NCBI RefSeq assembly: GCF_003318165.1 | Contig: NZ_QOCB01000116.1 | Span: 1-46,977, forward strand | Length of the DNA: 46,977 nucleotides | Direction of reading: 5' to 3' | Source: Psychromonas sp. B3M02 | Lineage (GTDB): Bacteria > Pseudomonadota > Gammaproteobacteria > Enterobacterales > Psychromonadaceae | Shown: in pieces, positions 1,066 through 18,584 of the stretch | How positions within the stretch are numbered: the stretch's first letter is position 1 | Layout of the letters: every line of letters starts with the position of its first letter | Notes under the pieces: generated by a model | What the model saw: the letters and a program-made list of their open reading frames with translations, nothing else | Database searches by the model: none | What the model was told of the DNA's origin: nothing | Position numbers and translations under genes: made by a program

Positions 1066-1097
1066 CAATTAATTTGTCCAATCGGACAAATTAATTG
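1066..1097. promoter_or_regulatory. Near-perfect 32-bp palindrome, likely operator of the RutR-like regulator
   Basis: CAATTAATTTGTCC (1066-1079) and GGACAAATTAATTG (1084-1097) are perfect inverted copies around a 4-nt centre. The repeat ends 8 bp before the first operon ATG at 1106. The core TTGTCCAATCGGACAA has the same layout as the RutR consensus TTGACCANNTGGTCAA. It sits just after the RutR-like gene. Binding would cover the promoter or the start of the transcript. Confidence 0.85.
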
Positions 1098-1105
1098 GTT
1101 GGTGT

Positions 1106-2062
1106 ATGACTGAAGATAAAAAGATACAAGTGCGCATATCAGAAGTGGAAGTATTAACAGGCTCAATATGCCGTTATCGCTTTGTGTCACTTCACGGAGA
1201 TGCTTTACCAAGCTTTTCAGCTGGCGCACACATTGAAGTTGTTATAAACGATGATTTCACTCGCGCCTACTCTTTATGCAGTGACCCAAGTGATGCAGCA
1301 GCGTATTACGATATTGCGGTTAAAAGAGAAGATCATGGACGTGGTGGTTCGAAAGCATTTCATCAACTAGCTGAAATTGGCTCTGTTTTTACTATTAGCT
1401 CGCTTAATAATTATTTCCCATTATCAGAAACGGCGGAACACCATCTATTAATCGGAGCTGGTATTGGCTTAACCCCTATGCTCGCGATGGCACATACTTT
1501 AACTGCTCAGCATAAAGCCTTTACCTTGGTTGCTTGTGCCAGTGGAGAAGCTAATTTGCCTTTTTCAGCACAGTTATCGTCTCAACCTTGGTCTGTTCAA
1601 CTGTGCCTATCTGGCCGAGCTGAATTTAATTTTGCTGCTTTGTTAGCTAATTTGCCGAAAAAGGTTGATGTGTATTGTTGTGGTCCAAATGGATTTATTG
1701 AATTAGTAAAAGATCAGTGTGTAGTTTCATCTCATGATCCATTACCACTTGAACAGTGGCATGAAGAGCGATTTACACCGATTAGCACGCCTGCTGATAG
1801 CGATAGTTTTGAATTATATCTACGTCAAAGTGAACAGCGTATTTCTGTTGTTACGGGAGAAAGCATGGTTGATGCATTACATAAAGCTGGAATAAAAGTG
1901 GATACCGTATGTGAGCAGGGTATTTGTGGAAGTTGCTTAGTAGAGTGGAGTGATGGGGAGCCTATTCACCGAGATCAATGCTTAGAAGATACCGAACGAG
2001 ATGAGTATATCGCCTTATGCTGTGGGGGTTGCCACTCTCAAAGCCTAACCTTGGAGCTGTAA
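1106..2062 (+). CDS. VanB/PDR-type flavin and 2Fe-2S oxidoreductase
   Basis: A 318-residue phthalate dioxygenase reductase-like protein that passes electrons from NAD(P)H through flavin to a plant-type ferredoxin domain. The flavin motif R-A-Y-S-L-C-S lies near residue 53, the nucleotide-binding motif G-A-G-I-G-L-T-P near 117, and C-C-G-P-N-G-F follows. The C-terminal ferredoxin domain has the cysteine pattern C-x4-C-x2-C with a fourth cysteine about 30 residues later (C-E-Q-G-I-C-G-S-C...C-C-G-G-C). Relatives serve Rieske oxygenases (VanA/VanB, HpxD/HpxE), but no Rieske oxygenase gene lies anywhere in this window. The gene overlaps the next one by one base at TAATG. The electron acceptor is unknown. 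Confidence 0.88.
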   Translation: MTEDKKIQVRISEVEVLTGSICRYRFVSLHGDALPSFSAGAHIEVVINDDFTRAYSLCSDPSDAAAYYDIAVKREDHGRGGSKAFHQLAEIGSVFTISSLNNYFPLSETAEHHLLIGAGIGLTPMLAMAHTLTAQHKAFTLVACASGEANLPFSAQLSSQPWSVQLCLSGRAEFNFAALLANLPKKVDVYCCGPNGFIELVKDQCVVSSHDPLPLEQWHEERFTPISTPADSDSFELYLRQSEQRISVVTGESMVDALHKAGIKVDTVCEQGICGSCLVEWSDGEPIHRDQCLEDTERDEYIALCCGGCHSQSLTLEL

Positions 2063-3360
2063 TGATGTCTTCTTCTATAACAACGCCTGTGCCTCAATGG
2101 TTAACTAATTTACGTTTACCTGAATGGCTATTACCAACAGATTGGCCATTGTTAAATGGGTTACCGCAGCTCGCTCATGTTGAAGTGAGTGCTGGAGCTG
2201 TTGCTAAACTAACGCCAATACTGCCAAGTGATGTGATTGAGTCTATCAATATTGATGGCGCTTTATGCTTGCCAAGTTTAGTAGAGGCGCATGCTCATCT
2301 CGATAAAACTTTTACCCGTCATCGTATAGGTGATGTCACCCCGGGTTTATTAGGTGCTATTGAAGCAATGCAGCAAGATAAATCTAAATGGAGTCATGAT
2401 GATCTATGGCAACGTGTTGAGCAGGCATTGCAACAAGCCTATGCAAATGGGGTAGCGTACCTGCGCACACATGTTGATTGGGATAATGAGCAAGCACCTG
2501 CGGCTTGGCATGTATTGCAAGCATTAGCGAAAAGTTGGCAACATAAAATTCACCTTGAGCAGGTTGCATTAGTTCCCTTAACACTGCTCGCTGATAGCAA
2601 CAATACTGACACTATACTTCAGCAAGTAAGCGCTACAGGTAATGGCATTATGGGCTGTTTTATACATAGCGTTAACTTTGATGCAGATGCCTTTGAATAT
2701 TTAATTAAACAAGCTGCAAAGTTACATATAGATTTAGATTTACATATTGATGAAGAGCTTGCTGACCAGCCTCAGGGGCTAATTTGCTTATTGGATTGTT
2801 TAGAAACAGTTTCTTTCCGTGGACGTATCGTGTGTGGGCATGTCTGCGCACTGAGTTCATGTGAAACCTCATTAGCAACCTCATTATTAGATCGTATTCA
2901 GCAACAACCTATTACCTTGATCTCTTTACCAACAACCAATCTATTGCTGCAGGACGCAGAAGTTGATCGTACCCCTAAATTACTTGGTTTAACGCTCCTT
3001 AAGGAAGCAAAAAGTCGAGATATTCCAACCATGATAGCCACAGATAATGTACAAGATGCCTTTTGTAGTTTTGGAGAATATGACCCGATTGAAGCATTGC
3101 GTTTAGCAACTTATGGCGCGCAATTAAGCCATGTGTTTGACCGTTGGTCTCAGTCTATTTGTAATGCTAACTACTTATCTAGCGAACTTAACGCCTTTAA
3201 CTTAATAGGTAAAAGTGCTGATTTTGTGGTGTTTGATAATAAAGATGTTTGGAGCTGGCCAAGTGGTGAAGAGCGTTTACTTATTCGCGGTGGTTATGTG
3301 ATCAAACCAAATAAACAAGCTGTGGTTCCACTTTTTAATGACCATAAGGATATCTCATGA
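2062..3360 (+). CDS. CodA-like amidohydrolase / deaminase
   Basis: A 432-residue metal-dependent amidohydrolase of the cytosine deaminase type. I place the start at 2062, where ATG overlaps the upstream TAA and follows GGAG; the open frame runs further up, inside the previous gene. Metal-binding pieces are present in the family order: H-A-H-L-D (residues 77-81), T-H-V-D (137-140), H-I-D-E (228-231), G-H near 260 and T-D-N near 327-329. It is far from the second CodA homologue at 14886-16133, notably after the first motif (K-T-F in place of the cytosine deaminase T-A-G-Q-P-N-W segment). The substrate is probably a heterocycle other than cytosine. It overlaps the next gene by 4 bp. Confidence 0.82.
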   Translation: MMSSSITTPVPQWLTNLRLPEWLLPTDWPLLNGLPQLAHVEVSAGAVAKLTPILPSDVIESINIDGALCLPSLVEAHAHLDKTFTRHRIGDVTPGLLGAIEAMQQDKSKWSHDDLWQRVEQALQQAYANGVAYLRTHVDWDNEQAPAAWHVLQALAKSWQHKIHLEQVALVPLTLLADSNNTDTILQQVSATGNGIMGCFIHSVNFDADAFEYLIKQAAKLHIDLDLHIDEELADQPQGLICLLDCLETVSFRGRIVCGHVCALSSCETSLATSLLDRIQQQPITLISLPTTNLLLQDAEVDRTPKLLGLTLLKEAKSRDIPTMIATDNVQDAFCSFGEYDPIEALRLATYGAQLSHVFDRWSQSICNANYLSSELNAFNLIGKSADFVVFDNKDVWSWPSGEERLLIRGGYVIKPNKQAVVPLFNDHKDIS

Positions 3361-3839
3361 AACAACCTATAGTAGATCAACAAAGCACCGGGAAAGGTGC
3401 GCCATTAGCGCGCTATGCAGCAACTAAACGTGTAGGTGATTTTATCTTTTTCTCTGGAGTGATCGCCGTTGATCCGAAGAAAAGAATAATAGTGCAAGGG
3501 TTTGATGATATTCCAGTGGAAGCAGCCAATGCAATAGGTCGTACTGGGCAGTTCTCAGCTGACTTTAAACAGCAGGCTATCTTGTCTCAAAGCTGGTATG
3601 TGCTAGATAGCATTCGCCAACACATTGAACAACAGGGTGGGCAAATGAGCGATGTATTTAAGCTCGTTCAATATTTTAAAAACCTGGATCATTTTCCACT
3701 TTTTAGTCAGGTCAGAGATCAATTTTTCCCTGATCAGCCACCTATCTCAACCATAGTGGAAGTGAGTGCCATGCTACCAAGTGAAGATATTTTAATTGAA
3801 GTGGAAGCAACTGCTTACTTACCTTTAACATCATTATAG
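3357..3839 (+). CDS. RidA/YjgF/UK114-family protein
   Basis: A 160-residue Rid-superfamily protein, long for the family (about 130), translated from an ATGA overlap. The conserved fold is visible from A-R-Y-A...G-D-F-I-F-F-S-G near the N-terminus to V-E-V-S-A-M-L-P...L-I-E-V-E-A at the C-terminus. The catalytic arginine of true RidA imine deaminases (Arg105, in R-S-C-V-E-V) is replaced: here the run before V-E-V is P-P-I-S-T-I, giving Ser. It is therefore unlikely to be a general 2-aminoacrylate deaminase. A pathway-specific role comparable to RutC in uracil breakdown fits the neighbours. Confidence 0.87.
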   Translation: MKQPIVDQQSTGKGAPLARYAATKRVGDFIFFSGVIAVDPKKRIIVQGFDDIPVEAANAIGRTGQFSADFKQQAILSQSWYVLDSIRQHIEQQGGQMSDVFKLVQYFKNLDHFPLFSQVRDQFFPDQPPISTIVEVSAMLPSEDILIEVEATAYLPLTSL

Positions 3840-3849
3840 AGAGATTATT

Positions 3850-4698
3850 ATGCTACATGCTTATACGCCATCAGAACGTTTTCTTCCTTACCTGACATGG
3901 CCTGAAATTGATCAAATGGAAGACAAAGACAATGTGGTTATCGTATTGCCAGTTGGGGCAATAGAACAACATGGTCCTCACCTTCCTTGCTCGGTTGATG
4001 CCACTGTTTCAGCGGGTGTTGTTGGTCATGCCTTAGCTTTATTGCCCGACGATATTTCTGCTTACGGTATTCCTGCTATTAGTTATGGTAAGTCCGATGA
4101 ACATTTGCACTTTCCTGGCACCCTAACGCTGACCGGAGAGTTGCTGCTACATACGATTCAGGAACTGGGGGAGTCATTATATCGCTCAGGGTTTAGAAAG
4201 TTGTTGATGGTTAATGCTCATGGTGGTCAACCACAGCCCTTAGAGATGGCGGCACGCGAACTACGTTTACGTCATGGAGACTTTATGGTGATTGCGCGTG
4301 ACGTGTGGAGTTTACCGCATAACGATGACTTTATTTCTGAGAAAGAGAAGCAATTATCAATGCATGCCGGACACGGTGAAACATCAATCATGATGGCGCT
4401 ATTACCTGATTCAGTGCATATGGATCGCACTGAAGCACATTACCCTGAACCTTTTCCCTGCCCAACATTAACCAGTGGCCGTCCGGCTGCAGCCTGGGCA
4501 AGTATCGATTTTGGGCCATCTGGTGTCATTGGTGACCCGAGTGCCGCAACTTTAGCACAAGGTGAACAGTTATTAAGTGATCTAGCAACGCAATGGGCGA
4601 CAGCGATAACTGAAATCCATAATGCGCAATGGGTAAAACGAGAGTATCAATCTTGGGGTAAAAGCCAATTCAACGGTTATGTCCATAGTCAAAAATAG
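3850..4698 (+). CDS. Creatininase-family amidohydrolase
   Basis: A 282-residue creatininase-superfamily enzyme, a metal-dependent cyclic-amide or formamide hydrolase. Ligand motifs are L-P-V-G-A-I-E-Q-H-G-P-H (Glu39, His41), Asp50, V-N-A-H-G-G (His124) and A-G-H-G-E-T-S (Glu177). In true creatininase the fourth motif is N-G-H-Y-E-N, where Glu supplies the second metal. Here it is N-A-H-G-G-Q, as in deformylase-like members such as ArfB, so creatinine is not the expected substrate. The ribosome site GAGAG precedes the ATG and the gap to the RidA gene is 10 bp. It probably opens a ring or removes an acyl group after the CodA-like step. Confidence 0.88.
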   Translation: MLHAYTPSERFLPYLTWPEIDQMEDKDNVVIVLPVGAIEQHGPHLPCSVDATVSAGVVGHALALLPDDISAYGIPAISYGKSDEHLHFPGTLTLTGELLLHTIQELGESLYRSGFRKLLMVNAHGGQPQPLEMAARELRLRHGDFMVIARDVWSLPHNDDFISEKEKQLSMHAGHGETSIMMALLPDSVHMDRTEAHYPEPFPCPTLTSGRPAAAWASIDFGPSGVIGDPSAATLAQGEQLLSDLATQWATAITEIHNAQWVKREYQSWGKSQFNGYVHSQK

Positions 4699-4765
4699 CT
4701 TTCATTGAGAACCGGCTATTCAAATATTACTTAAACATTATTTTAGTCAATAAAGAGGGAACGAT

Positions 4766-5770
4766 ATGAACCAAAGTAAGCAACAGTCAGTACGTAATCG
4801 AGTTATTGGACTCACTGCGTTAGCCGCGTCAATGGCTTTATCAACCAATGCAACGGCTGATCAAACTCCATTTAACTTTGTCACCAATTGGTACGCACAG
4901 GCGGAACACGGCGGTTTCTATCAAGCTTTAGGGGCTGATTTATATAAAGATAATGGATTAGATGTCAGCATAAAAATGGGTGGACCACAGGTTAATACCG
5001 TGCAGTTACTGGCCGCAGGGCGAGCTCAATGTGCCTTAGTGGATGATATCGGGGCGATCAACGCAGTGAAAAAAGGTGTACCGATTAAAATAGTAGCGAC
5101 TAGCTTCCAATTTGATCCTACTGTGATCATTACCCATAGCAATATCGAACAACTATCTGATTTAAAAGATAACACCATCTTAATTTCTAGTAGTGCTTAT
5201 GCCAGCTGGTGGCCTTGGGCTAAAAAACAATATGGTTTCACGGATGCCATGACTCGTCCTTATACCTTTAATATTCAACCTTTTGTGTTGGATAACAAGA
5301 TTGCTCAGCAAGGTTTTTTAACCTCTGAACCGTTTGCCATGACGCAAGCAGGTGCTGACCATAAAGTATTTATGATTGGTCAAGATGGTTTTCCGCCATA
5401 TGGTAATTCGATCGCTTGTCGTAATGATGCTATTGCTAATAATGGTGAACAAATCACTGCATTCTTAGCTGCAACGATGGAAGGTTGGAAGCAATACCTA
5501 ACGGATCCAATCGAAGGCAATAAATTAATTGTTAAAAACAACCCTAACATGAGCGCAGAGCAGCTTAGCTATTCAGTGAAAGAGTTAAACAGTTCAGGCA
5601 TCGTGAGTGGTGGAGATGCAAAGACAAAAGGCATCGGTATTATCACTGATGAGAGAATGGGTAAAACATGGCAGATGGGTGTTGATAATGGCTTATTTAA
5701 CGCATCGGAAGTGAGTTTAGAGAGTATTTATACCACGCAATTTATCGATAAGATTAAGGTGACTCTATGA
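4766..5770 (+). CDS. ABC transporter substrate-binding protein, NMT1/THI5-like
   Basis: A 334-residue periplasmic binding protein with a Sec signal peptide ending at A-T-A (about residue 31). The early segment N-W-Y-A-Q-A-E-H-G-G-F-Y-Q-A is the hallmark of NMT1/THI5-like proteins. That family includes binders of hydroxymethylpyrimidine, formylaminopyrimidine, sulfonates, nitrate and riboflavin. Downstream V-D-D-I-G and S-E-P-F-A blocks are also typical. A 67-bp gap separates it from the creatininase gene, and it overlaps the ATPase gene by 4 bp. With the surrounding enzymes, a pyrimidine-like ligand is the simplest guess. Confidence 0.88.
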   Translation: MNQSKQQSVRNRVIGLTALAASMALSTNATADQTPFNFVTNWYAQAEHGGFYQALGADLYKDNGLDVSIKMGGPQVNTVQLLAAGRAQCALVDDIGAINAVKKGVPIKIVATSFQFDPTVIITHSNIEQLSDLKDNTILISSSAYASWWPWAKKQYGFTDAMTRPYTFNIQPFVLDNKIAQQGFLTSEPFAMTQAGADHKVFMIGQDGFPPYGNSIACRNDAIANNGEQITAFLAATMEGWKQYLTDPIEGNKLIVKNNPNMSAEQLSYSVKELNSSGIVSGGDAKTKGIGIITDERMGKTWQMGVDNGLFNASEVSLESIYTTQFIDKIKVTL

Positions 5771-6600
5771 GCCAATCGAACCTAAAAGTGGTTGATACTG
5801 AGCCTGTATCAACCCTTGATGCACCGACGGCAGTTGAATTACTGTCCACGGAGAAAACTTATCCCAATGGTACTCAAGCTCTATTGCCTGTTGATTTAAA
5901 AATTAAACAGGGAGAGTTTGTAACCTTATTGGGACCATCGGGTTGCGGTAAAAGTACCTTATTAAAAATGGTTGCTGGGTTGGAATCCCCGTCCGATGGT
6001 CGTTTATTGTTATGGCGAAAACCAGTAGATAAACTGCAGGACGGTAAGCGAACTTTATCTTTTGTATTCCAAGAAGCTTCTTTAATGGTTTGGCATTCAG
6101 TGCGTAAAAATATCAGCTTAGCCTTGGAGCTAGAGGGCATTAAAGGTAAAGAAGCGCAGCAACGAGTTGACCAAGTGTTAAAGTTAGTGGGACTTGAAAA
6201 GTTTGCCGATTCACTACCGAAAGAGTTATCAGGTGGCATGCAAATGCGCGTTTCTATTGCACGTGGATTGGTCATTAAACCTGACCTGTTACTCATGGAT
6301 GAACCCTTTGGCGCATTGGATGAAATCACTCGCTTTAAGCTGGATAGTGATTTGTTACAACTTTGGCAGGAAAACGGTTTAACGGTTATTTTTGTTACGC
6401 ATTCCATCCATGAAGCAGTATTCCTATCCCAAAGAGTGATAGTGATGGCCGCACGTCCAGGAAGGGTGATTGCCAATATTGAAATTGATGAACCTTTCCC
6501 CCGTACTCAACAGTTCCGTTTACAACCTAAGTTTTCTCAATACGCGATGGAATTACATCAGTATTTAGAAAATGCATCTGTTGAGGAGATTAGCTCATGA
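5767..6600 (+). CDS. ABC transporter ATPase, SsuB/TauB type
   Basis: A 277-residue nucleotide-binding subunit with all motifs intact: Walker A G-P-S-G-C-G-K-S-T (56-64), signature L-S-G-G-M-Q, Walker B L-L-L-M-D-E-P-F-G-A-L-D, and the switch histidine in V-T-H-S. The length and the D-E-P-F-G-A-L-D-E-I-T-R block are typical of sulfonate/taurine/nitrate/thiamine-precursor importers. It shares 4-bp overlaps with both the binding-protein and permease genes, so the three are translationally coupled. Confidence 0.93.
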   Translation: MSQSNLKVVDTEPVSTLDAPTAVELLSTEKTYPNGTQALLPVDLKIKQGEFVTLLGPSGCGKSTLLKMVAGLESPSDGRLLLWRKPVDKLQDGKRTLSFVFQEASLMVWHSVRKNISLALELEGIKGKEAQQRVDQVLKLVGLEKFADSLPKELSGGMQMRVSIARGLVIKPDLLLMDEPFGALDEITRFKLDSDLLQLWQENGLTVIFVTHSIHEAVFLSQRVIVMAARPGRVIANIEIDEPFPRTQQFRLQPKFSQYAMELHQYLENASVEEISS

Positions 6601-7403
6601 ATAGTAAAACAGAAAAGCAGCCTTTATTAGCGAACCCAAAATATAAAAAGGTCATTATTCCTAGCTTGATTGCTATGTTAATTCTCTTTATTTGGCAATT
6701 TATTGTGGTCACTGCGGATATACCTGAGTATATTTTTCCTTCTCCTTTTGTCACGGCTAAAACCTTATATGCCGATTGGGGGTTATTAGGGCCTGCATTA
6801 CTTTATACTTTAAAAGTCACCTTGTTCTCTTTTTTATTGGCGATTGTTGTTGGTGTGTGTGTGGCTTTTGTATTTGTTCAGAATAGAAGCATTGAAACCG
6901 CCTTATTTCCTTATGCTGTGCTTTTACAAGTTACACCTATTGTTGCGATTGCACCGTTAATTATTATTTGGATTCAAAATACAACGTTAGCTTTAGTGGT
7001 GTGCTCTACATTGGTTGCATTGTTTCCAATTATCTCTAATACCACGCTTGGTTTACGTAGTGTTTCTCCTAATTTATTGGCTTATTTTAAGTTACGCCGT
7101 GCAAGTCGTTTGCAAATCCTTTTTCGCTTACGTGTTCCCTCTGCAATGCCTTATTTCTTTGCTGCATTACAAATCGCCAGCGGTTTGTCATTAGTGGGTG
7201 CCGTTGTGGCTGAGTTTGTGGCAGGTACTGGTGGCGCAAACACAGGTTTAGCATATCAAATTTTGCAATCAGGTTATCAGTTGAATATTCCTCGTATGTT
7301 TGCCGCACTTACCTTGATATCTCTAACCGGTGTGGTGCTGTTTGCCGCGATGTCCATGATATCTAAGTTAGTGATAGGGCATTGGCATGAAAGCGAAGTG
7401 TAG
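6597..7403 (+). CDS. ABC transporter permease, SsuC/TauC type
   Basis: A 268-residue inner-membrane permease with about six hydrophobic segments, starting near residue 18. The cytoplasmic EAA-like loop is visible as F-K-L-R-R-A-S-R...L-R-V-P-S-A-M-P-Y-F-F. It belongs to the BPD_transp_1 family and completes the importer. The start ATG overlaps the ATPase stop and is preceded by GAGGAG. The next gene follows after 31 bp with its own AAGGA site. Confidence 0.92.
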   Translation: MNSKTEKQPLLANPKYKKVIIPSLIAMLILFIWQFIVVTADIPEYIFPSPFVTAKTLYADWGLLGPALLYTLKVTLFSFLLAIVVGVCVAFVFVQNRSIETALFPYAVLLQVTPIVAIAPLIIIWIQNTTLALVVCSTLVALFPIISNTTLGLRSVSPNLLAYFKLRRASRLQILFRLRVPSAMPYFFAALQIASGLSLVGAVVAEFVAGTGGANTGLAYQILQSGYQLNIPRMFAALTLISLTGVVLFAAMSMISKLVIGHWHESEV

Positions 7404-7434
7404 TGAAAAATTTAGTCAGTAGTAAGGAAAAATT

Positions 7435-8784
7435 ATGGCAGTAAGTGAAGCAACTCAAACATTACAAACAAGGTTACCTTTATTAGATTGGGTAACATCG
7501 CCGATTCAAGTAAAGCGGTTATCAAAGGATTTTCATTGGTTTAGCCCTATCTTGTTTGCACAATTAAGCACCAAAAAATCCGATATAGTGGTTCGTCCTA
7601 AAAATGAGAAAGAATTAAAAGAGGTTGTTGCTCAATGTGCCGCACTGAAATTACCTATGACGGTAAGAGGTGGTGGGACAGGGAATTATGGTCAGTCAGT
7701 GCCTTTACAGGGGGGAGTGACGATTGATACTTCTCATTATAACCAGATAAATTGGTTATCGCCGGATGATGGCATTATTTCTGTACAATCTGGTATCAAG
7801 TTAGGGGTAATAGAAGAAGCTGCAAGAGAACAAGGCTGGGAGCTTCGTTGTATGCCTTCTACCTATAAAATGGCGTCGATAGGTGGGCTATTCTCTGGCG
7901 GTTTTGGAGGCGTTGGTTCGATAAACTATGGGCCGGTTGCTACTGAAGGAACTATTTTATCTGTCAGAGTGATGACCATTTCTGAAACGCCGGAAGTGTT
8001 TGAGGTGAGCGGAGATGATTTAGTGAGTTTCCATCACACTTATGGCACCAATGGTGTGATTTTAGATATCGAATTAGCGTTAGCGCCTGCAAGAGTATGG
8101 GATGAGTATTTACTCTCTTTCAAACAGCTTAATCAGGCGATTCAGTTTTCAAAGCAAGTTGCTAATAGTACGGGGATAGATAAACGTAATATTGCTGTTT
8201 TTGATGCATATAGTGCGAGTCATTTTGAGCAAACACCACAAGATTTAGCGGCCTCTGACTATGTTGTTATAGCGGTGATTGCATCGAATGCAAAACAACC
8301 TATGCTGAAATTAATGGAAAGGGCACAGGGTAAGATCGAATGGAGCCAAACCTTTGCTGAAGCACAGCAAAGTAAGACAACATTAGTAGAGTGCTGCTGG
8401 AATCATTCAACTTTACATGCATTAAAAAATAATAAAGCCCTCACTTACCTACAAACTAATTATGATGTTGATAATGTTATTGAACAATTAATGCAAATTG
8501 AAAAAAACAGTCATGGTCAAGTTCAGGTACATCTCGAAGTGATCAGAATGGCTGAAAGTGAATTGGCCATTGTTGGGTTACCGCTTATTCATTTCAAGAG
8601 TGCAGAGCAATTACAAAACATTGTGGATATACATACACAATTTGGGGTGAGCATTAATGACCCGCATGTCTATACACTTGAAGATGGTAAGCATAAAGGT
8701 TGTTTTAGCCATTCTATTTTAGATAGTAAGCGTAAGAATGACCCATTAAATCTGCTTAATGTAGGTAAGTTAAGAAGTCTTTAA
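7435..8784 (+). CDS. FAD-linked oxidase (FAD_binding_4 / GlcD-like)
   Basis: A 449-residue flavoprotein of the vanillyl-alcohol-oxidase fold. The FAD-binding part occupies roughly the first half: V-V-R-P-K-N-E-K-E-L-K-E, then V-R-G-G-G-T-G-N-Y-G-Q-S, and S-I-G-G-L-F-S-G-G-F-G-G-V-G-S with Y-G-P. No signal peptide or iron-sulfur cysteines are present. The C-terminal half shows no substrate signature I can name. As the last gene of the tight array it probably oxidises an alcohol or reduced-ring intermediate. The spacing suggests cotranscription with the importer. Confidence 0.85.
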   Translation: MAVSEATQTLQTRLPLLDWVTSPIQVKRLSKDFHWFSPILFAQLSTKKSDIVVRPKNEKELKEVVAQCAALKLPMTVRGGGTGNYGQSVPLQGGVTIDTSHYNQINWLSPDDGIISVQSGIKLGVIEEAAREQGWELRCMPSTYKMASIGGLFSGGFGGVGSINYGPVATEGTILSVRVMTISETPEVFEVSGDDLVSFHHTYGTNGVILDIELALAPARVWDEYLLSFKQLNQAIQFSKQVANSTGIDKRNIAVFDAYSASHFEQTPQDLAASDYVVIAVIASNAKQPMLKLMERAQGKIEWSQTFAEAQQSKTTLVECCWNHSTLHALKNNKALTYLQTNYDVDNVIEQLMQIEKNSHGQVQVHLEVIRMAESELAIVGLPLIHFKSAEQLQNIVDIHTQFGVSINDPHVYTLEDGKHKGCFSHSILDSKRKNDPLNLLNVGKLRSL

Positions 8785-9035
8785 TAGGTTGTTAGTGCAT
8801 AAAGCCAATCTATTTATAGGCTGTTTTGGTTGGGGGGCCATATCGAAGCGCTGAGCGAAATAGGTTTATTGTTGGCGAATATTCTGACTATTTAGACACT
8901 GTATCCAATATGCTAAGTGAAGGATTGTCTATTTAAAATTGATAATCTTTCAATAAAGCGTGTGTTTATCTTTTATTTATTGACGATTACTATTACTGCA
9001 TTAAATAATTTACCCTCTCTTATTAGGAAGATACC
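8785..9035. other. Gap between the operon and the ABM gene
   Basis: This 251-bp gap may end the operon: a weak AAGCC/GGCTG hairpin around 8802-8823 is followed by TTTT. On the + strand, about 36 codons are open up to a TAA near 8935, in a frame with no start codon or ribosome site. I do not recognise the product and regard it as chance or an old gene remnant. The ABM gene probably has its own promoter here. Confidence 0.3.
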
Positions 9036-9329
9036 ATGTCTGAATTAACTATTATTGCGAATATTGTTGTAAAACCTGAGCACCTAGCATTTGTTACGTC
9101 TGAGCTATTAAAGTTAGTTGAAATCACCAAAAAAGAAGCGGGGTGTATTAACTACGATTTACATCAAGATAAAGAAAAACCTACCCATTTCATGATGTTT
9201 GAAAAGTGGGCAAGTCGAGAGTTATGGTCGCAACATGGTGCTGCTGCTCACCTCTCTGATTATGTGCAGGCAACGGAAGGTAAAGTTGAGCGTTTTTCGG
9301 TTAGTGAAATGAATTTTTTAACTGCTTAA
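9036..9329 (+). CDS. ABM-domain (YgiN/LsrG-like) small monooxygenase-fold protein
   Basis: A 97-residue dimeric alpha-beta barrel of the antibiotic biosynthesis monooxygenase family. Typical blocks are I-I-A-N-I-V-V-K-P-E-H, K-E-A-G-C-I-N-Y-D-L-H, and F-E-K-W-A-S-R-E-L-W-S-Q-H. Members act as cofactor-free quinol monooxygenases or isomerases. The ribosome site is AGGAAG. It is separated from the operon by 251 bp, so it may be independent. Its closeness to an oxidative catabolic cluster that lacks an oxygenase makes participation possible but unproven. Confidence 0.85.
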   Translation: MSELTIIANIVVKPEHLAFVTSELLKLVEITKKEAGCINYDLHQDKEKPTHFMMFEKWASRELWSQHGAAAHLSDYVQATEGKVERFSVSEMNFLTA

Positions 9330-10610: not shown

Positions 10611-12545
10611 TTACAGTGCCCAAGCAAGACCAATCCTCATGTCTCGACCAGGTGCCATATCGCCAGATGCACCATAGATGGTCGGACCAAAAGTTGATTG
10701 ATCTCGGTATTGCTTATCAAATAGGTTACTAACCGTTAATGTTAGCTTTAATGAGTCGTTTTTCAGTGGTTGCCACTGCCCATAAAGATCGTGAACACCG
10801 TAACCTGCTTTTTCTAATACATCGTCATGTGTATCAGTAAGGCGTGCAACAAACTGTCCTGACCAACCAAACTCTAACGAATCTGAAAATTGGTAACTGA
10901 TGCTAGTGTTGACATGATCACCAGTGGAGATACCAAGGTCAGTATCATAATAACCGCCTATGGGTTCACCGTTTAACTCTGAGACACTGTGGTTGTACGC
11001 CACACTAGCCTGTAATGCAGACCAATTATAACTTACACCCAGTGTAACCCCTTTATTGACTAATTCTCCGTCATTATTAAATTCTGTATAGTTAGTTTCT
11101 CCCCATTCGCCGTAGGTAATAACATCATCAATGGTGGCGTAATAGACATTAGCAGATAGCGCTACCCCTGCGAGATTATAATCAATGGAGAAACTTAGGT
11201 TTTCAGCCCTCTCTTCTTTCAAATCAGCGGCATTAGTATAACCACCTGTATAGATGAGGTAACTTTCTCTCACTTCAACACCACGCATCGCCTGTGCAAA
11301 GCCAAGCTCTAATTGCAGGTCATCATTTGGAGAAAACAATACACTGACATTAGGGCTAAAACCTTTGCTTTCAAACTTTTGTTGGTCTGCATCGGTTGTT
11401 TTATAAATATCGTAGCGACTTCCTAAGTTTAACAATAATGCTTGTGCTAGCTGAAACTCTGCTTGCAAGTAGATACCATAAACATCGCCTTTTTCGTCAC
11501 GTGCATCTTCGCTGGTGGATTGATAAGATGATTTATCACGACGGTAATCTAATCCATAAGTAATTGAACCGTCTGAGAAGTGATTGGAGTTACGTATATC
11601 AACACCATAAGTGCTAATTTTACCCTCTGCGTCATCGTCTACACGAGTAATATTGTTTTCTGTATAATAAGCATTTGTGTCTAACGCTAGCCATTGATTG
11701 TTTTCAGGAGCGATTGAGTACTCTAGCTTACTCGTTGTACGGTGAGCTTCCATTTCTACACTAGGGTTGTTACCTGCTAAAGCCCAGTTCGGTCTAAGCA
11801 ATTTTTCACCATCATCAATGCGATGATCGAAGCTGATACCCACCCGTTGATTATTGTCAAATCGACCAACAACCTTCACTAACCCATTTTGTTGTTCATA
11901 TTCTGTATATGCAATTTCGTTTCCATTGCCATCTTCATAATTATCAGATTCAGTTTGAACCACAGTGGCCATTGCACTCCAATGATTATTTATTTTTCCA
12001 TATAAACTAAGGCTGGTTTTATATGCACTAGCATTGGTGTTATAACTGCCTTTGATTAACGCACCAAAACGCTCATCTTCTTTTAATAAGTCTTCAGGAT
12101 CTTTTGTTGTAAAGTTAATTGCACCGCCTAGTGCACCAGCACCACTTAGCGCATCACCAGCTCCTGCTTGTACTTCAACTTGTTTAAGTAATTCGGGTTC
12201 AATAGAGATACTGCCTTGGTGGTGAAATGTACTGGCAGATTGTTTCGCACCATCTATGGTGACGTTGAGCATATTACTCTCTAGATCACGTACATATACT
12301 TTTTGCGATACTGTTGAGGTACCACCTACCGAAATATCAGCCTCATTTTTCAAGACATCTTTAAGGTCAGAGGCTTGAGACTTTTCTAAATGTTCTTGGT
12401 TGATATTGGTTTCAGATAAGGAGATGCGTTCACCTGTTACTGTGATCGTGTCAAACTGTTGGTCTGCGCTTAATTTTGGACTAATAAGCGCAGATGTAAC
12501 AGCTAGTGCTAGAACACTATGTTTTAGCTTTATATTCTTATTCAT
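10611..12545 (-). CDS. TonB-dependent outer-membrane receptor, iron/heme type
   Basis: A 644-residue TonB-dependent receptor. It has a signal peptide (cleaved near S-A, about residue 27), then a TonB-box-like D-T-I-T-V-T-G, a plug domain to about residue 150 (V-Y-V-R-D-L...G-A-G-D-A-L-S-G-A-G-A-L-G-G-A-I-N-F) and a beta-barrel to the C-terminus. The M-L-N-V-T-I-D-G-A-K-Q...H-H-Q-G block resembles heme/hemoglobin and related iron receptors. The start is supported by GGAG 8 nt upstream. A strong Fur box lies in the promoter, so it is iron-repressed. No TonB, heme chaperone or ABC importer gene is adjacent, so the ligand is inferred only as an iron source. Confidence 0.88.
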   Translation of the reverse strand: MNKNIKLKHSVLALAVTSALISPKLSADQQFDTITVTGERISLSETNINQEHLEKSQASDLKDVLKNEADISVGGTSTVSQKVYVRDLESNMLNVTIDGAKQSASTFHHQGSISIEPELLKQVEVQAGAGDALSGAGALGGAINFTTKDPEDLLKEDERFGALIKGSYNTNASAYKTSLSLYGKINNHWSAMATVVQTESDNYEDGNGNEIAYTEYEQQNGLVKVVGRFDNNQRVGISFDHRIDDGEKLLRPNWALAGNNPSVEMEAHRTTSKLEYSIAPENNQWLALDTNAYYTENNITRVDDDAEGKISTYGVDIRNSNHFSDGSITYGLDYRRDKSSYQSTSEDARDEKGDVYGIYLQAEFQLAQALLLNLGSRYDIYKTTDADQQKFESKGFSPNVSVLFSPNDDLQLELGFAQAMRGVEVRESYLIYTGGYTNAADLKEERAENLSFSIDYNLAGVALSANVYYATIDDVITYGEWGETNYTEFNNDGELVNKGVTLGVSYNWSALQASVAYNHSVSELNGEPIGGYYDTDLGISTGDHVNTSISYQFSDSLEFGWSGQFVARLTDTHDDVLEKAGYGVHDLYGQWQPLKNDSLKLTLTVSNLFDKQYRDQSTFGPTIYGASGDMAPGRDMRIGLAWAL

Positions 12546-14885: not shown

Positions 14886-16133
14886 TTAGTCACTGAACGT
14901 GACTTGTTGAGTGAGAATACTTGGTTGACGGCAAGTCAATACCTTACCTTCACGAATCGACCACAGCACTTCACCTTGGCGTTGTATTACATTGGCGTCA
15001 TCGTAACCTTCAAGAATGATAAAGTTAGCCGGTTTATCTACTTCAATACCATAGCGATCGGTGATATTAAGTGTCTTGGCGCCATTATCGGTAATAAGGT
15101 CTAAGGCAGTTGATAAGTCTTCATAACCCATCATATGACAAGCATGAATCCCTGCATCTAATACGCGTAATAGTTTACCGTTACCTAATGTGTACCAAGG
15201 ATCTTGTATTGAATCTTCGGCAAAACAAATATTCATGCCGGCATCGCGAATTTCCTTAACACGGGTAATGCCACGAATTTTGGGATAAGAATCAAACCTT
15301 CCATTAAGGTGTAGGCTTTCAGTAGGGCATGAGACAAAGTTTATTTTGGACTTTTTAAGTAACCGGAACAGCTTACTACAGTAAGCATTATTATAAGAGT
15401 GCATTGCTGTAGTATGACTCGCAGTCACTCGTGAACCAATATCCTTCTCTAGAGCTTCTGTTGCTAATACTTCTAAAAACCTTGATGCGCCGTCATCAAT
15501 TTCATCACAGTGAACATCGACTAATTTATTATGTTTTTCTGCAAGTTCGATAACCCATTTCATCGATTCTACACCATATTCTCGGGTATATTCGAAGTGA
15601 GGGATTCCACCAATAACATCAGCGTATTGCATAGATTTTTCCATTAATGCTTTTCCATTTGGAAAAGACATTATCCCTTCTTGCGGGAAAGCGACAATTT
15701 GGAGTTCGAGGTAAGGTGATAATTTTTCGCGTAAATCATGGATAGCTTTTAAAGCCACTAAATCTGGGTCGGTTACATCGACATGAGTACGAATATATTG
15801 CACGCCATTAGCCAGTAATAATTCGACTGCTTTTAAAACACGAGTTTGAACATCTTCATGGCTCAACATAGATTTACGCTCACCCCAACGTTCAATGCCT
15901 TCGAATAATGTACCACTCATATTCCAATTGGGTTGACCAGCAGTTAATACGGCATCTAGGTGAATATGAGGCTCAACGAAGGGTGCACATAACAGGTTAC
16001 CTTGGGCATTAATATCTGCATTATCTGTATCTAGTGTCTGATCTTGGGCTTTAATTTCTGAAAAAAAACCATTTTCACAAATAATGGTATGAAGTGCCGG
16101 TTGTCCTCTTAAACGCGCGTTAATTATTTTCAT
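14886..16133 (-). CDS. codA: Cytosine deaminase family amidohydrolase
   Basis: A 415-residue homologue of E. coli CodA (cytosine to uracil plus ammonia, cytoplasmic). Matching blocks include P-F-V-E-P-H-I-H-L-D (His56, His58), T-A-G-Q-P-N-W, the H-C-D-E-I-D-D motif (His208, Glu211), V-T-A-S-H-T-T-A-M-H-S-Y (His240) and D-P-W-Y. The metal Asp is Asp307 in A-E-D-S. The residue after it is Ser308, where E. coli has Asp314, a known specificity position; the preceding residue is Glu instead of His. The loop C-P-T-E-S also differs from the E. coli N-P-L-V-N. Cytosine is likely, but isoguanine, creatinine or another ring could be preferred. AGGAAA precedes the ATG. Third gene of the codB operon. Confidence 0.88.
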   Translation of the reverse strand: MKIINARLRGQPALHTIICENGFFSEIKAQDQTLDTDNADINAQGNLLCAPFVEPHIHLDAVLTAGQPNWNMSGTLFEGIERWGERKSMLSHEDVQTRVLKAVELLLANGVQYIRTHVDVTDPDLVALKAIHDLREKLSPYLELQIVAFPQEGIMSFPNGKALMEKSMQYADVIGGIPHFEYTREYGVESMKWVIELAEKHNKLVDVHCDEIDDGASRFLEVLATEALEKDIGSRVTASHTTAMHSYNNAYCSKLFRLLKKSKINFVSCPTESLHLNGRFDSYPKIRGITRVKEIRDAGMNICFAEDSIQDPWYTLGNGKLLRVLDAGIHACHMMGYEDLSTALDLITDNGAKTLNITDRYGIEVDKPANFIILEGYDDANVIQRQGEVLWSIREGKVLTCRQPSILTQQVTFSD

Positions 16134-16160
16134 ATTGTTTCCTAATCTCTTTTATTTAGG

Positions 16161-17324
16161 TTAGTTAGGCTTGATCAAAATCAGCCGTTCCATTGCTAAG
16201 GCATTTTGTAAGCATAGACGTTGTTGTGAGTCACTTAAGTTGTTCTTGGTGAGCAACTCAATACGTTTTAATCTGTGAGTTAACGTGTTGCGGTGAATAT
16301 TGAGTGCAGAGGCTGTTTGTCTTGCGGATCCTAAGTGTTTAAAGTAGCAACTGAGTGTACTTTTTAAGAGTTCTGATTGTTTATCAAAACGATTATAGAG
16401 TTCGCCTAAATTATTTCGGCAAAAAAGGTTTAATTGGGCATAGTCTTCTATCCCTGAAAAGAGTTGAAGAATGCCTAGATATTGATAATGAAAAACATGA
16501 TTAGTTTCTTGGTAGCGAGCAAAATCCACTGTTTGTATTGCTTGTTGTGTTGCTCTGCGTAATTGCTGTATCCCTTGGCCTTCACTTACTCCTATATTAC
16601 AACTGACCCCGTGTTGATTAAGCGTTTTGTATAATGTGTTCCACTTCGAGAGGCTTTGCTCTTGCTGGTCTAGCTGTAACGGAAATGATAATAACCAACC
16701 TTGATGGTATTCTAATAATGGAAATTCACTTTGGTGGTCGGATAAAAATTGATTTAATAAAAACTGACAGTGGCTGAGATCTCCTTTTTCAAGGCGTTTA
16801 GGCACCACCATTGCAATAGAGAAAGCACCAGTAGTATTAATACCAAACTCACCGGCTTTTATGAGCGTCATTTCAGCAGGGCTAGAGCTAGTTAATAGGT
16901 GCTCCATTAAAGCGCGGGTAGATTGATGTGCTAAATCTGACTTAATGATTGAGTTTGATAGCAATTCAGTTACTTTAACCATAGGTAATGAGTACGGTTG
17001 CTCAAAGATAGGAAAACCTATTTCTTCTGCGACTGTTAATACTTGTGCTGGTATATTTTTTATATAAGGTGAATTGGTTAAAATGACTAATCCACTAGCT
17101 TGTTTTTGTTTACCAAGGTGAATTAACTTAATAAAGTCTTCAGTTTGCCATTGCCAGTTTAAACCGGTTACAAAAATCAGTTCACCACCACTTATCCAGT
17201 CTCCGATATCGTTATTTTCAGCAACGTAAGGCCAACGAATGACATTCTCAGCGCCTTGCTGTCCTGCTCGTAACGTTATCTCTTCAAGTCCTGGTATAAG
17301 TGAAAGTGACTGAACTTTGATCAT
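16161..17324 (-). CDS. PucR-family transcriptional regulator
   Basis: A 387-residue regulator. The N-terminal PucR ligand domain (about residues 5-125) contains L-S-L-I-P-G-L-E and G-E-L-I-F-V-T-G. A middle GGDEF-like/CdaR region follows, and the C-terminal PucR helix-turn-helix ends the protein, seen as L-N-I-H-R-N-T-L-T-H-R-L-K-R-I-E. Family members switch on purine, allantoin or related nitrogen-compound genes in response to ligand. It lies between codB (3 bp away) and codA (27 bp away) on the same strand, so it probably controls its own operon. Binding may involve the GTGCA-rich region upstream of codB. Confidence 0.9.
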   Translation of the reverse strand: MIKVQSLSLIPGLEEITLRAGQQGAENVIRWPYVAENNDIGDWISGGELIFVTGLNWQWQTEDFIKLIHLGKQKQASGLVILTNSPYIKNIPAQVLTVAEEIGFPIFEQPYSLPMVKVTELLSNSIIKSDLAHQSTRALMEHLLTSSSPAEMTLIKAGEFGINTTGAFSIAMVVPKRLEKGDLSHCQFLLNQFLSDHQSEFPLLEYHQGWLLSFPLQLDQQEQSLSKWNTLYKTLNQHGVSCNIGVSEGQGIQQLRRATQQAIQTVDFARYQETNHVFHYQYLGILQLFSGIEDYAQLNLFCRNNLGELYNRFDKQSELLKSTLSCYFKHLGSARQTASALNIHRNTLTHRLKRIELLTKNNLSDSQQRLCLQNALAMERLILIKPN

Positions 17325-17327
17325 CTA

Positions 17328-18584
17328 TTAGGCGCCTTGTACTGTTTTTGATTTTGTAGAGTTTATATACAATAAAATACAGTAGGCTAATGAAGCAACA
17401 ACGATACCGACTAATGGTGCAATCCATGGAGAGAAATAAGCTGCAGCTGAACCAATAATATAGGCAAAGATACCTTGCATATTATATTGCGGTAAGTCGA
17501 TTTCTGAGAGGGCTGGCATATTTCCACGAAAGCGAACCCAAAAGTCGGTCATGATGATAGCGCCGATAGGTGGAATAAAGGTGCCTAATAAGATAAGGAA
17601 TGGGATCAGCATATTATACATTCCCATAATCGCCATCACTGTACCTATAGCCGCACCAACAATGGTAATTAGTTTACGCTTCTCTGTTCGTAATAAATTA
17701 CAACCAGCCGCTGCAAAGTTATAAATAGTGTTATCTTGAGTAGTCCATATATTAGTAAATAACATAATAACTGCGGCTATCATGAAACCTTGTGAGACAA
17801 GCACATCTACGATATCTGATTGTTGGTAAACTAATGCGCCAAATGCACCAACAAATACCATTAAACCATTACCAATGAAGAAAGCGGCTAATGTAGCAGT
17901 GATGGCAATCTTTCCTGATTTAGCAAAACGACTCCAGTTTGTGGCTTGTGTCCCACCACTAACAAAGGTACCAAATACAACAGTGATTGCAGCGCCTATT
18001 GACATACTTTCTGTGGGTTGTTTGGCCACTAACTCTCCAATCCCACCTACGTCAATTAAACCTTTGTAGAAGCATAAGCCAATTAGAAATAGCATCAGAG
18101 GAACTGAAATTTTAGATAGTATTTCAAGTGCCTTATAGCCAATTGATGCACTAATGCAGAAACCAAAACCAAATAGAATCATTAAAGGTGTTGACCATGC
18201 ACTAGGTAAATCCAGTAGTTTAACTAAAATAATAGCGATGGTTGCTGTACCCCATGCATACCAACCAATTTGTGTAAATCCGAGTACAAAATCAGATAAT
18301 TTACTGCCCTGAAGCCCAAAGCTATATCGTCCTAACAAAACGGTATTTAAACCCGTTTTAAAGGCTACATATGCCAAACCAGCAGCGTAACTGCCTAATA
18401 AAAGATTACCAATGAAAACAATGCCTAAAATTTCATTAAAATTAAATGCCGTACCTAGGCTACCTCCCGCCCACATTGTTGCGGTAAAAAAAGTGAAACC
18501 AAGTAATACTGACATCATTGACCATAATCCTTTGCGTTGGTCAGCTGGCACAGCACTGAGTGGGAAGTCGTTTTTACTATCCAT
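17328..18584 (-). CDS. codB: Cytosine permease, NCS1 family
   Basis: A 418-residue inner-membrane transporter with about 12 hydrophobic segments. It has NCS1 hallmarks such as W-A-G-G-S-L-G-T-A, the G-R-Y-S-F-G-L-Q-G stretch, and T-Q-I-G-W-Y-A-W-G-T-A. Length and sequence match CodB, the proton- or sodium-coupled cytosine importer. The ribosome site AGGAACAAG is well placed. It is the first gene of codB-pucR-codA, so it brings in the base that CodA deaminates. Confidence 0.92.
   Translation of the reverse strand: MDSKNDFPLSAVPADQRKGLWSMMSVLLGFTFFTATMWAGGSLGTAFNFNEILGIVFIGNLLLGSYAAGLAYVAFKTGLNTVLLGRYSFGLQGSKLSDFVLGFTQIGWYAWGTATIAIILVKLLDLPSAWSTPLMILFGFGFCISASIGYKALEILSKISVPLMLFLIGLCFYKGLIDVGGIGELVAKQPTESMSIGAAITVVFGTFVSGGTQATNWSRFAKSGKIAITATLAAFFIGNGLMVFVGAFGALVYQQSDIVDVLVSQGFMIAAVIMLFTNIWTTQDNTIYNFAAAGCNLLRTEKRKLITIVGAAIGTVMAIMGMYNMLIPFLILLGTFIPPIGAIIMTDFWVRFRGNMPALSEIDLPQYNMQGIFAYIIGSAAAYFSPWIAPLVGIVVASLAYCILLYINSTKSKTVQGA

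Follow-up and report, generated by a model that had tools for sequence, protein, structure and literature searches.

A Gene Cluster of Psychromonas sp. B3M02, Most Likely One Branch of a Widespread Set for Pterin Uptake and Breakdown

Results

The stretch of DNA that was analysed (the window) comprises 46,977 nucleotides of Psychromonas sp. B3M02. Reading of its open reading frames gives ten intact frames, all on the plus strand, from the gene of a TetR-family regulator through to that of an ABM-domain protein. The regulator (315–932) matches TetR_C_3 (YcdC-like; 2e-26) and TetR_N (5e-12) in Pfam, and position 315 is the preferred start, from a GAGAGAG sequence upstream of it. The gap that follows holds a palindrome with 14-bp arms and a 4-bp spacer (1066–1097), the proposed operator. 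Beyond it lie eight genes, encoding a VanB-type reductase with FAD/FMN- and NAD-binding domains and a 2Fe-2S domain (1106–2062; Fer2, 7e-11; FAD_binding_6, 7e-6), a cytosine deaminase-like amidohydrolase (2065–3360) that is a candidate pterin deaminase, a Rid-family protein (3357–3839; Ribonuc_L-PSP, 2.5e-16; PDB 3lyb, 1e-58), a creatininase-family protein (3850–4698; PF02633, 7e-68) proposed to be a ring-amide hydrolase, an importer consisting of an NMT1/THI5-type substrate-binding protein (4766–5770; PF09084, 1e-22), an ABC transporter ATPase (5767–6600; PF00005, 4.5e-34) and a permease (6597–7403; PF00528, 1.9e-23), and an FAD-binding oxidoreductase (7435–8784; PF01565, 7e-29). The spacings are, in order, 2, −4, 10, 67, −4, −4, and 31 bp. 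The eight packed genes behind a RutR-like gene that the original prediction described are intact, and Pfam concurs with the family names that it gave them. The operon does not stand out by its base composition.

Relatives of the cluster were compared in 84 loci. Besides the window, these comprise three loci on plasmids (L005, L006, and L008) and the 80 best among at least 561 flavoprotein relatives that were confirmed; they are therefore close kin of the query and of each other rather than a random sample. Genes were counted from a tblastn listing, which found genes that a listing based on open reading frames had missed. A core of six genes is complete in 66 of the 84 loci, including those of Klebsiella, Pantoea, Pseudomonas, Marinomonas, and Acidovorax, and many more genera hold most parts of the eight-gene set. 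Records from Rahnella and Klebsiella contain the identical eight genes in identical order, and the gene set is therefore not a product of chance; a search of gene neighbourhoods, which had been suggested as a check, thus finds the set again. The block had been delimited as 1066–9329, a span that opens with the palindrome and takes in the ABM-domain gene (9036–9329; PF03992, 1.5e-15) that begins 251 bp past the FAD oxidoreductase gene. The eight-gene block is real, but the ABM gene at its end was seen in only two of the 84 loci, the window and its sister L011, and was therefore rejected as a conserved member; it probably lies outside the conserved operon. Its PHROGs matches are to families of unknown function.

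In trees constructed by a quick method, which took in 32 of 71 amidohydrolase rows and 37 of 93 flavoprotein rows, the window branch forms a clade of its own (23 amidohydrolase and 28 flavoprotein rows; SH-aLRT 100 in both), and the window cluster is therefore regarded as a related branch, not an ortholog, of the characterised pterin cluster. Group II is not a single well-supported clade in these trees. We know of no characterised member of the window's branch. Variovorax boronicumulans carries both versions of the cluster, and their substrates may therefore differ.

The regulator scores 125.7 bits against the curated equivalog cut-off of 368 for RutR (TIGR03613), and the Rid protein 37.3 against 169.1 for RutC. 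The link to RutR and RutC that had been drawn from the sequence therefore stands as family kinship, but the two proteins are relatives and not RutR or RutC themselves. The palindrome between the regulator and the first operon gene is perfect, and its 18-bp core has a single mismatch-free occurrence in the genome. Palindromes of like form occur in the gap between the TetR gene and the operon in 13 of 51 loci, as against one in 1.03 Mb elsewhere, although the pattern was formulated after several of its sites had been viewed. Genome sites with up to two mismatches number 10, fewer than the 26 found for a reversed control pattern; this speaks against a regulon, and therefore the exact site alone counts. 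Promoter-like sites (28) are not in excess of those in shuffled sequences (23.3, S.D. 5.8). The palindrome was also considered as a terminator, which a scan places on the minus strand, yet the tail reads CATGTTTAAT.

The amidohydrolase has His76, His78, His227, Glu230, His259, and Asp327, the metal and acid residues, and all of them are invariant across 10 aligned relatives. It falls below the cut-offs of both CodA models (PRK09230, 91.9 of 483 bits; PRK07583, 266.5 of 403 bits), and it is 34% identical (8e-65) to a V. boronicumulans protein of the L100 locus, a near relative of the Variovorax pterin deaminase that lies in the second version of the cluster. The gene of the latter bears the primer site of the pterin deaminase of Variovorax sp. 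F1 with 3 mismatches in 21, and the start of the Rid gene that follows it is an exact match to the complement of the published downstream primer. This amidohydrolase-Rid pair faces a TetR-VanB-NQO-SBP-FAD-permease-ATPase-creatininase set. The Variovorax sp. F1 enzyme is active on folic and pteroic acids (You et al., 2022; PMC9513972).

A second deaminase is present beside or inside the clusters of group I in 19 of the 84 loci, being placed within the operon in L088, L089, and L090; the window operon contains no deaminase of this type. Its match to PDB entry 2paj, reportedly the isoxanthopterin deaminase of Hall et al. (2010), is 2e-199. Five loci have the 2paj-type enzyme and no core amidohydrolase, and four of these five genomes lack any amidohydrolase of more than 30% identity. 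In Variovorax, loci without the amidohydrolase are accompanied by a pterin deaminase elsewhere in all nine genomes (68–79% identity), and seven of the nine also hold an amidohydrolase of 38–40% identity; however, 13 of 26 other genomes searched have a deaminase at 62% identity or more, and the Variovorax pattern is therefore weak evidence of borrowing. A deaminase of the cytidine deaminase fold is present instead in 10 of the 84 loci, and a RutB-like hydrolase is present in four.

The sole strong relative of known structure for the window flavoprotein is PDB 6v42, the title of which describes a flavin oxygenase of folate catabolism; the two agree in fold and length (TM score 0.91), with 35% sequence identity (7e-85). 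The genes proposed to supply electrons were counted in 76 of the 84 loci, after six in which no creatininase gene could be seen and two that are too short (L042 and L089) had been set aside: VanB is present in 24 and a flavodoxin-fold oxidoreductase in 48, and the two occur together in none.

In the alignment with Escherichia coli RidA, Ile130 of the Rid protein occupies the position of Arg105, and eight Rid proteins from the clusters have Ile, Val, or Ala there. This catalytic arginine is needed for imine hydrolysis by Rid proteins (RidA and Rid1–3), and the function of the arginine-less kind is unknown (PMC4433059). The creatininase-family protein is below the cut-offs for creatininase (108.3 of 235 bits) and MftE (146.7 of 172 bits). 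The predicted model of the binding protein (pLDDT 87.5) is closest in fold to 4nmy (thiamin-bound) and 3ix1 (formylaminopyrimidine), at 19–20% identity. In eight of the 84 loci, ureD starts 92–320 bp past the flavoprotein gene.

Discussion

Folates and pterins are present in nearly all cells; the pterin unit is the ring moiety of folate (vitamin B9). The mechanisms of their breakdown are not fully understood (You et al., 2022; PMC9513972). The set of genes in the window is most likely one branch of a widespread cluster for pterin uptake and breakdown, the steps of which are largely unworked, and as such its compact gene set, present in bacteria that can be cultured, lends itself to study of the missing steps of pterin ring opening. 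It also gives direction to genes that are annotated as cytosine deaminase, creatininase, or RidA. Pfam and curated models support the original prediction that the operon serves the catabolism of a nitrogen heterocycle, has a RutR-like protein as its regulator, and contains no gene for RutA, RutB, or dihydropyrimidinase. The view that a pyrimidine or a simple purine is the likeliest substrate is not supported, as the flavoprotein, the amidohydrolase, and the partner deaminase of the relatives point to pterins. The statement that the exact set matches no pathway holds for the window branch, which has no assigned substrate, but the set itself is common and its sister version contains a proven type of pterin deaminase.

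The Variovorax pterin deaminase locus (PMC9513972), with its gene neighbourhood taken from V. boronicumulans (L100), resembles the window in having the amidohydrolase, Rid, creatininase, NMT1 importer, 6v42-type flavoprotein, RutR-like TetR, and VanB, but differs in gene order, in being divided into two facing operons, and in having VanB and a flavodoxin-fold gene together; its flavoprotein is 37% identical to that of the window. The Rhizobium sp. AB2/73 cluster (L104), which stands for 6v42, shares the creatininase, importer, amidohydrolase, and 6v42-type flavoprotein but has a LysR-type gene and a flavodoxin-fold gene where the window has TetR and VanB. Thus the window has the 6v42-type flavoprotein, an amidohydrolase with its catalytic residues, and, clustered with them, genes for a creatininase-family protein and an NMT1 ABC importer, as in folate/pterin clusters, but lies outside the clade of the characterised members, and its flavoprotein is in a clade separate from that of 6v42/6v43. 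Arad3529 of Agrobacterium radiobacter K84 is reportedly a pterin deaminase, said to have been placed by Fan et al. in 2013 at the start of a proposed, then undescribed pathway of pterin degradation, and it presumably belongs to one broad group with the window amidohydrolase. PMC5788505 bears on Arad3529 only through its reference to Fan et al. Among the papers listed for the gene set, 6V42/6V43, folate catabolism flavin enzymes, and pterin catabolism, only PMC9513972 bears on the enzymes; PMC5270733 and PMC4433059 are background.

From its sequence, the operon probably functions in the uptake and breakdown of a compound of the pterin type. This would be a 2-amino-4-oxopteridine of the kind freed from folates, for instance pterin, pterin-6-carboxylate, or isoxanthopterin. 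The NMT1-type ABC importer would bring the compound into the cell, where the amidohydrolase would remove the 2-amino group to give a lumazine and ammonia. The 6v42-type flavoprotein would oxidise the pteridine ring with VanB reductase as its electron donor, a part that may be taken in relatives by the flavodoxin-fold oxidoreductase, either alone or together with a ferredoxin. The creatininase-family enzyme may then hydrolyse a ring amide, and the Rid protein may act on a late intermediate by a chemistry other than standard imine hydrolysis, the end products being presumably urea and small acids. TetR bound to the palindrome at 1066–1097 would repress the operon until a pathway compound binds to the regulator. 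It should be noted that observations fall on both sides of the pterin reading: the 6v42 match, the kinship with the Variovorax deaminase, the 2paj-type partner deaminase, ureD, and the recurrent palindrome favour it; against it, the window proteins share no more than 34–37% identity with their characterised counterparts and group in a separate clade, the cytidine deaminase-fold and RutB-like genes would suit purines or pyrimidines too, and the closest folds of the binding protein bind thiamin or pyrimidine.

It is conceivable, if doubtful, that the window branch is a separate route of pterin ring opening in which a VAO-fold flavin oxygenase is fed by VanB with no Rieske protein and an arginine-less Rid performs a novel type of late step toward urea. 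To about the same tentative degree, VanB may instead serve a Rieske oxygenase that has escaped recognition, is encoded outside the operon, and is needed for an early hydroxylation, as suggested by the VanA-type Rieske genes that accompany the cluster in 10 of the 84 loci. However, those Rieske-bearing relatives with a reductase in view have the flavodoxin-fold gene instead of VanB, and the operon has no Rieske oxygenase gene; nor did the window genome give a match in a family search, the control being positive in 10 of 14 genomes though not in E. coli, or with the L043 relative as query, a search that had no positive control.

Degradation of a purine of the guanine type (guanine itself, 8-oxoguanine, or some modified form), with deamination and oxidation followed by hydrolysis of the ring to urea, is an unlikely role for the window branch, although several features of the relatives would fit it. 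The 2paj-type deaminases have an 8-oxoguanine deaminase model as their next best (376.7 bits) and also match 3hpa (labelled amidohydrolase; 9e-71) and 7ww2 (labelled 8-oxoguanine deaminase; 3e-67), and the cytidine deaminase-fold gene, the urease genes after the cluster, and the VanA-type Rieske genes are found in 10, 8, and 10 of the 84 loci, respectively. However, PRK12393 scores 804 bits with the same deaminases, the match to 2paj is far above those to 3hpa and 7ww2, and the title of 6v42 refers to folate catabolism.

The route for a pyrimidine (cytosine, uracil, or the pyrimidine of thiamine) that was first envisaged is quite improbable and was rejected as the main reading: the cytosine deaminase-like amidohydrolase, the RutR-like TetR, the nearest folds of the binding protein, and the RutB-like gene of four loci favour it, but the cut-offs for cytosine deaminase, RutR, and RutC are all missed, a true codA-codB pair (CodA, 14886–16133; 593.8 bits against a cut-off of 483) lies 6 kb from the operon within the window, and a folate catabolism-type flavoprotein would be left with no explanation. 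The window shares with the Rut uracil pathway a RutR-like TetR, a Rid protein, and a palindrome that resembles the RutR box, but its operon has neither RutA nor RutB, and its regulator and Rid are far under the curated cut-offs. The Rid protein had itself been taken as a sign of uracil chemistry, an argument that fails because the key arginine is absent; the arginine-less Rid group is instead tied to one likely pathway, that of pterin breakdown.

Organization and Proposed Regulation of the Operon

The operon in the window is real, conserved, and catabolic, and it most likely represents a new branch of pterin/folate breakdown. The original prediction of a packed eight-gene set behind a TetR gene is borne out: the TetR gene (315-932) is followed, after a 173-bp gap, by a block at 1106-8784 that encodes, in order, a VanB reductase, an amidohydrolase, a Rid protein, a creatininase-family protein, an NMT1 binding protein, an ATPase, a permease, and an FAD oxidoreductase, and all of these reading frames are intact. 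An ABM-domain gene (9036-9329, + strand) lies downstream of the FAD oxidoreductase gene across a 251-bp gap; within a set of 84 loci it is found only in two Psychromonas loci. A Psychromonas locus (L011) is also the closest relative of the window locus.

The palindrome at 1066-1097 is exact, with 14-bp arms and a 4-bp spacer, and its 18-bp core has one mismatch-free copy in the 3.86-Mb genome; in form it resembles the Escherichia coli RutR box. Of 51 loci with a forward TetR gene, 13 have palindromes of the form TTG[AT][CT]C-N4-G[AG][AT]CAA in the gap that separates this gene from the one after it (17.9 kb); elsewhere in those loci the form occurs once in 1.03 Mb. Some of the counted sites had served to define the pattern, the loci are related to one another, and the other 38 have no site of this form, so that the recurrence of palindromes upstream of the cluster constitutes support rather than a probability.

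Distribution of the Cluster

The predicted gene set recurs elsewhere, identical in content and order: a plasmid search with the amidohydrolase as query found it in records of Rahnella victoriana and Klebsiella pneumoniae, where it stands behind a LysR gene. A scan of species genomes with the flavoprotein alignment confirmed at least 561 relatives; the set of 84 consists of the best 80 of these, three plasmid loci, and the window locus. The six-gene core (amidohydrolase, creatininase, binding protein, ATPase, permease, and flavoprotein) is complete in 66 of the 84 loci; the creatininase is present in 78, Rid in 50, and a TetR of the window's kind in 49. A sample of 295 genomes from the window's order contained 3 with the flavoprotein (1e-60), and one of 274 genomes from its class contained 2 with the amidohydrolase (1e-40), the window's own genome being included in each count; the distribution of the cluster there is therefore patchy.

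Evidence for Probable Pterin Breakdown

The pterin reading rests on three links, which involve the flavoprotein, the amidohydrolase, and a partner deaminase. The sole strong match of the window flavoprotein (7435-8784) among solved sequences is PDB entry 6v42 (7e-85; runner-up, 2e-9), whose title is "Crystal structure of the flavin oxygenase with cofactor bound involved in folate catabolism." The modeled flavoprotein (pLDDT 83) superimposes on 6v42 with a TM-score of 0.91 at 35% identity. A homologue on a Rhizobium plasmid matches 6v42 at 3e-212, and its cluster includes a creatininase, an importer, and an amidohydrolase.

For the amidohydrolase (2065-3360), the link is to the cloned pterin deaminase of Variovorax sp. 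F1, which has 399 residues, acts on folic and pteroic acid, and is encoded upstream of conserved "endoribonuclease" genes (You et al. 2022, PMC9513972). The forward primer given there differs at 3 of 21 positions from the opening codons of an amidohydrolase of 398 residues in Variovorax boronicumulans (L100). Since the downstream primer in its printed orientation matches nowhere in the L100 locus, while its complement is identical to the beginning of the Rid gene that follows, it was presumably printed as its complement. In a second Variovorax locus (L101) the forward and downstream sites have 3 and 2 mismatches, respectively, and the remaining cluster genes are not nearby. The L100 amidohydrolase-Rid pair faces a TetR-VanB-NQO-SBP-FAD-permease-ATPase-creatininase set (NQO, flavodoxin-fold oxidoreductase; SBP, binding protein). 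This is the window's cluster in a second version, with the same kinds of genes, but it is divided into two facing sets and also has the NQO.

In an amidohydrolase tree (32 sequences) and a flavoprotein tree (37 sequences), the window and Marinomonas proteins fall in one clade (group I, support 100 in both). Apart from it lie the relative of the Variovorax pterin deaminase, the Rhizobium relative of 6v42, and the clusters of other Alphaproteobacteria (group II), which do not resolve as a single clade. The two branches are separate, share 34-37% identity, and are both represented in V. boronicumulans; their general chemistry is therefore likely to be common, and group I may differ in its exact substrate. 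The amidohydrolase of the atrazine plasmid pADP-1 (L007, 8956-10287) belongs to group I, with 43% identity to that of the window; its neighbors are a BMP-type importer and cyanuric-acid genes, and the remaining cluster genes are absent. In a Polaromonas bin (L072, 10001-12804), group I and group II flavoprotein genes stand in tandem, and Ruegeria sp. TM1040 (L106, 7287-11444) has a glutamine-amidotransferase-like gene, a creatininase, an amidohydrolase, a flavoprotein, and a TauD-type dioxygenase in a row.

The partner deaminase, a further amidohydrolase present in 19 of the 84 loci, matches PDB entry 2paj at 2e-199 and scores 804 bits against PRK12393 (cut-off, 543); we take 2paj to be the isoxanthopterin deaminase of Hall et al. 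2010. According to PMC5270733, isoxanthopterin and pterin-6-carboxylate are substrates that enzymes from that study deaminate. The 2paj-type gene lies within the operon in L088, L089, and L090, and in these loci, L046, and L051 it occurs with no core amidohydrolase in view, four of the five being metagenome bins and L046 a 5.6-kb contig. Four of these five genomes have no amidohydrolase with more than 30% identity to the pterin deaminase; that of L088 has one at 43%. In L043, L051, L054, L056, and L058, an extension behind the core comprises a second binding protein, two tandem VanA-type Rieske genes, and a 2paj-type deaminase, whereas the Enterobacterales extension instead has a second binding protein, a 2paj-type deaminase, and a 2OG-Fe(II) oxygenase.

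In 8 of the 84 loci ureD starts 92-320 bp downstream of the flavoprotein gene on the same strand, a position that would make sense if urea is the end product of the ring, and this adjacency is supporting evidence for such a form of pterin breakdown; the urease of the window's genome is on another contig. The fold of the window's binding protein resembles thiamin- and aminopyrimidine-binding proteins, which would fit an aromatic nitrogen ring in general and does not discriminate which. A search of the open-licence literature found no description of the group I cluster.

Proposed Electron Supply and the Rid Protein

Among the 76 group I loci with sufficient sequence in view, 24 have a full VanB and 48 a flavodoxin-fold oxidoreductase, which in 9 cases comes with a separate 2Fe-2S protein; 4 have neither, and none has both. 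Within group I the two look like alternatives for one task; they occur together in the group II locus L100. We infer that VanB serves the flavoprotein. A family search whose control matched 10 of 14 genomes but missed E. coli detected no Rieske oxygenase in the window's genome, nor did a search, run without a positive control, that used the L043 relative as query; this negative result is therefore of limited weight. Ten of the 84 relatives have VanA-type Rieske genes along with the cluster, and 8 of these ten also have a 2paj-type deaminase.

Niehaus et al. 2015 (PMC4433059) report that imine hydrolysis requires the arginine of the P-A-R motif and that the Rid subfamilies without it have no known function. 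In alignments to RidA-type structures, this position is Ile130 in the window Rid and Ile, Val, or Ala in eight cluster Rids, so that the window protein gives no evidence for imine chemistry.

Other Features of the Window

On the other strand, 6 kb downstream of the operon, a separate cluster (14886-18584, - strand) encodes a true cytosine deaminase (PRK09230, 593.8 bits; cut-off, 483), a CdaR/PucR-like regulator, and a cytosine permease (564.4 bits; cut-off, 326). A TonB-dependent receptor (10611-12545, - strand) is closest to models of heme/hemoglobin receptors but does not reach their cut-offs (263.7 bits; cut-off, 316.85). The 716-residue major-facilitator-like frame at 29057-31207 (+ strand) has a long, acidic, repeat-like C-terminal extension.
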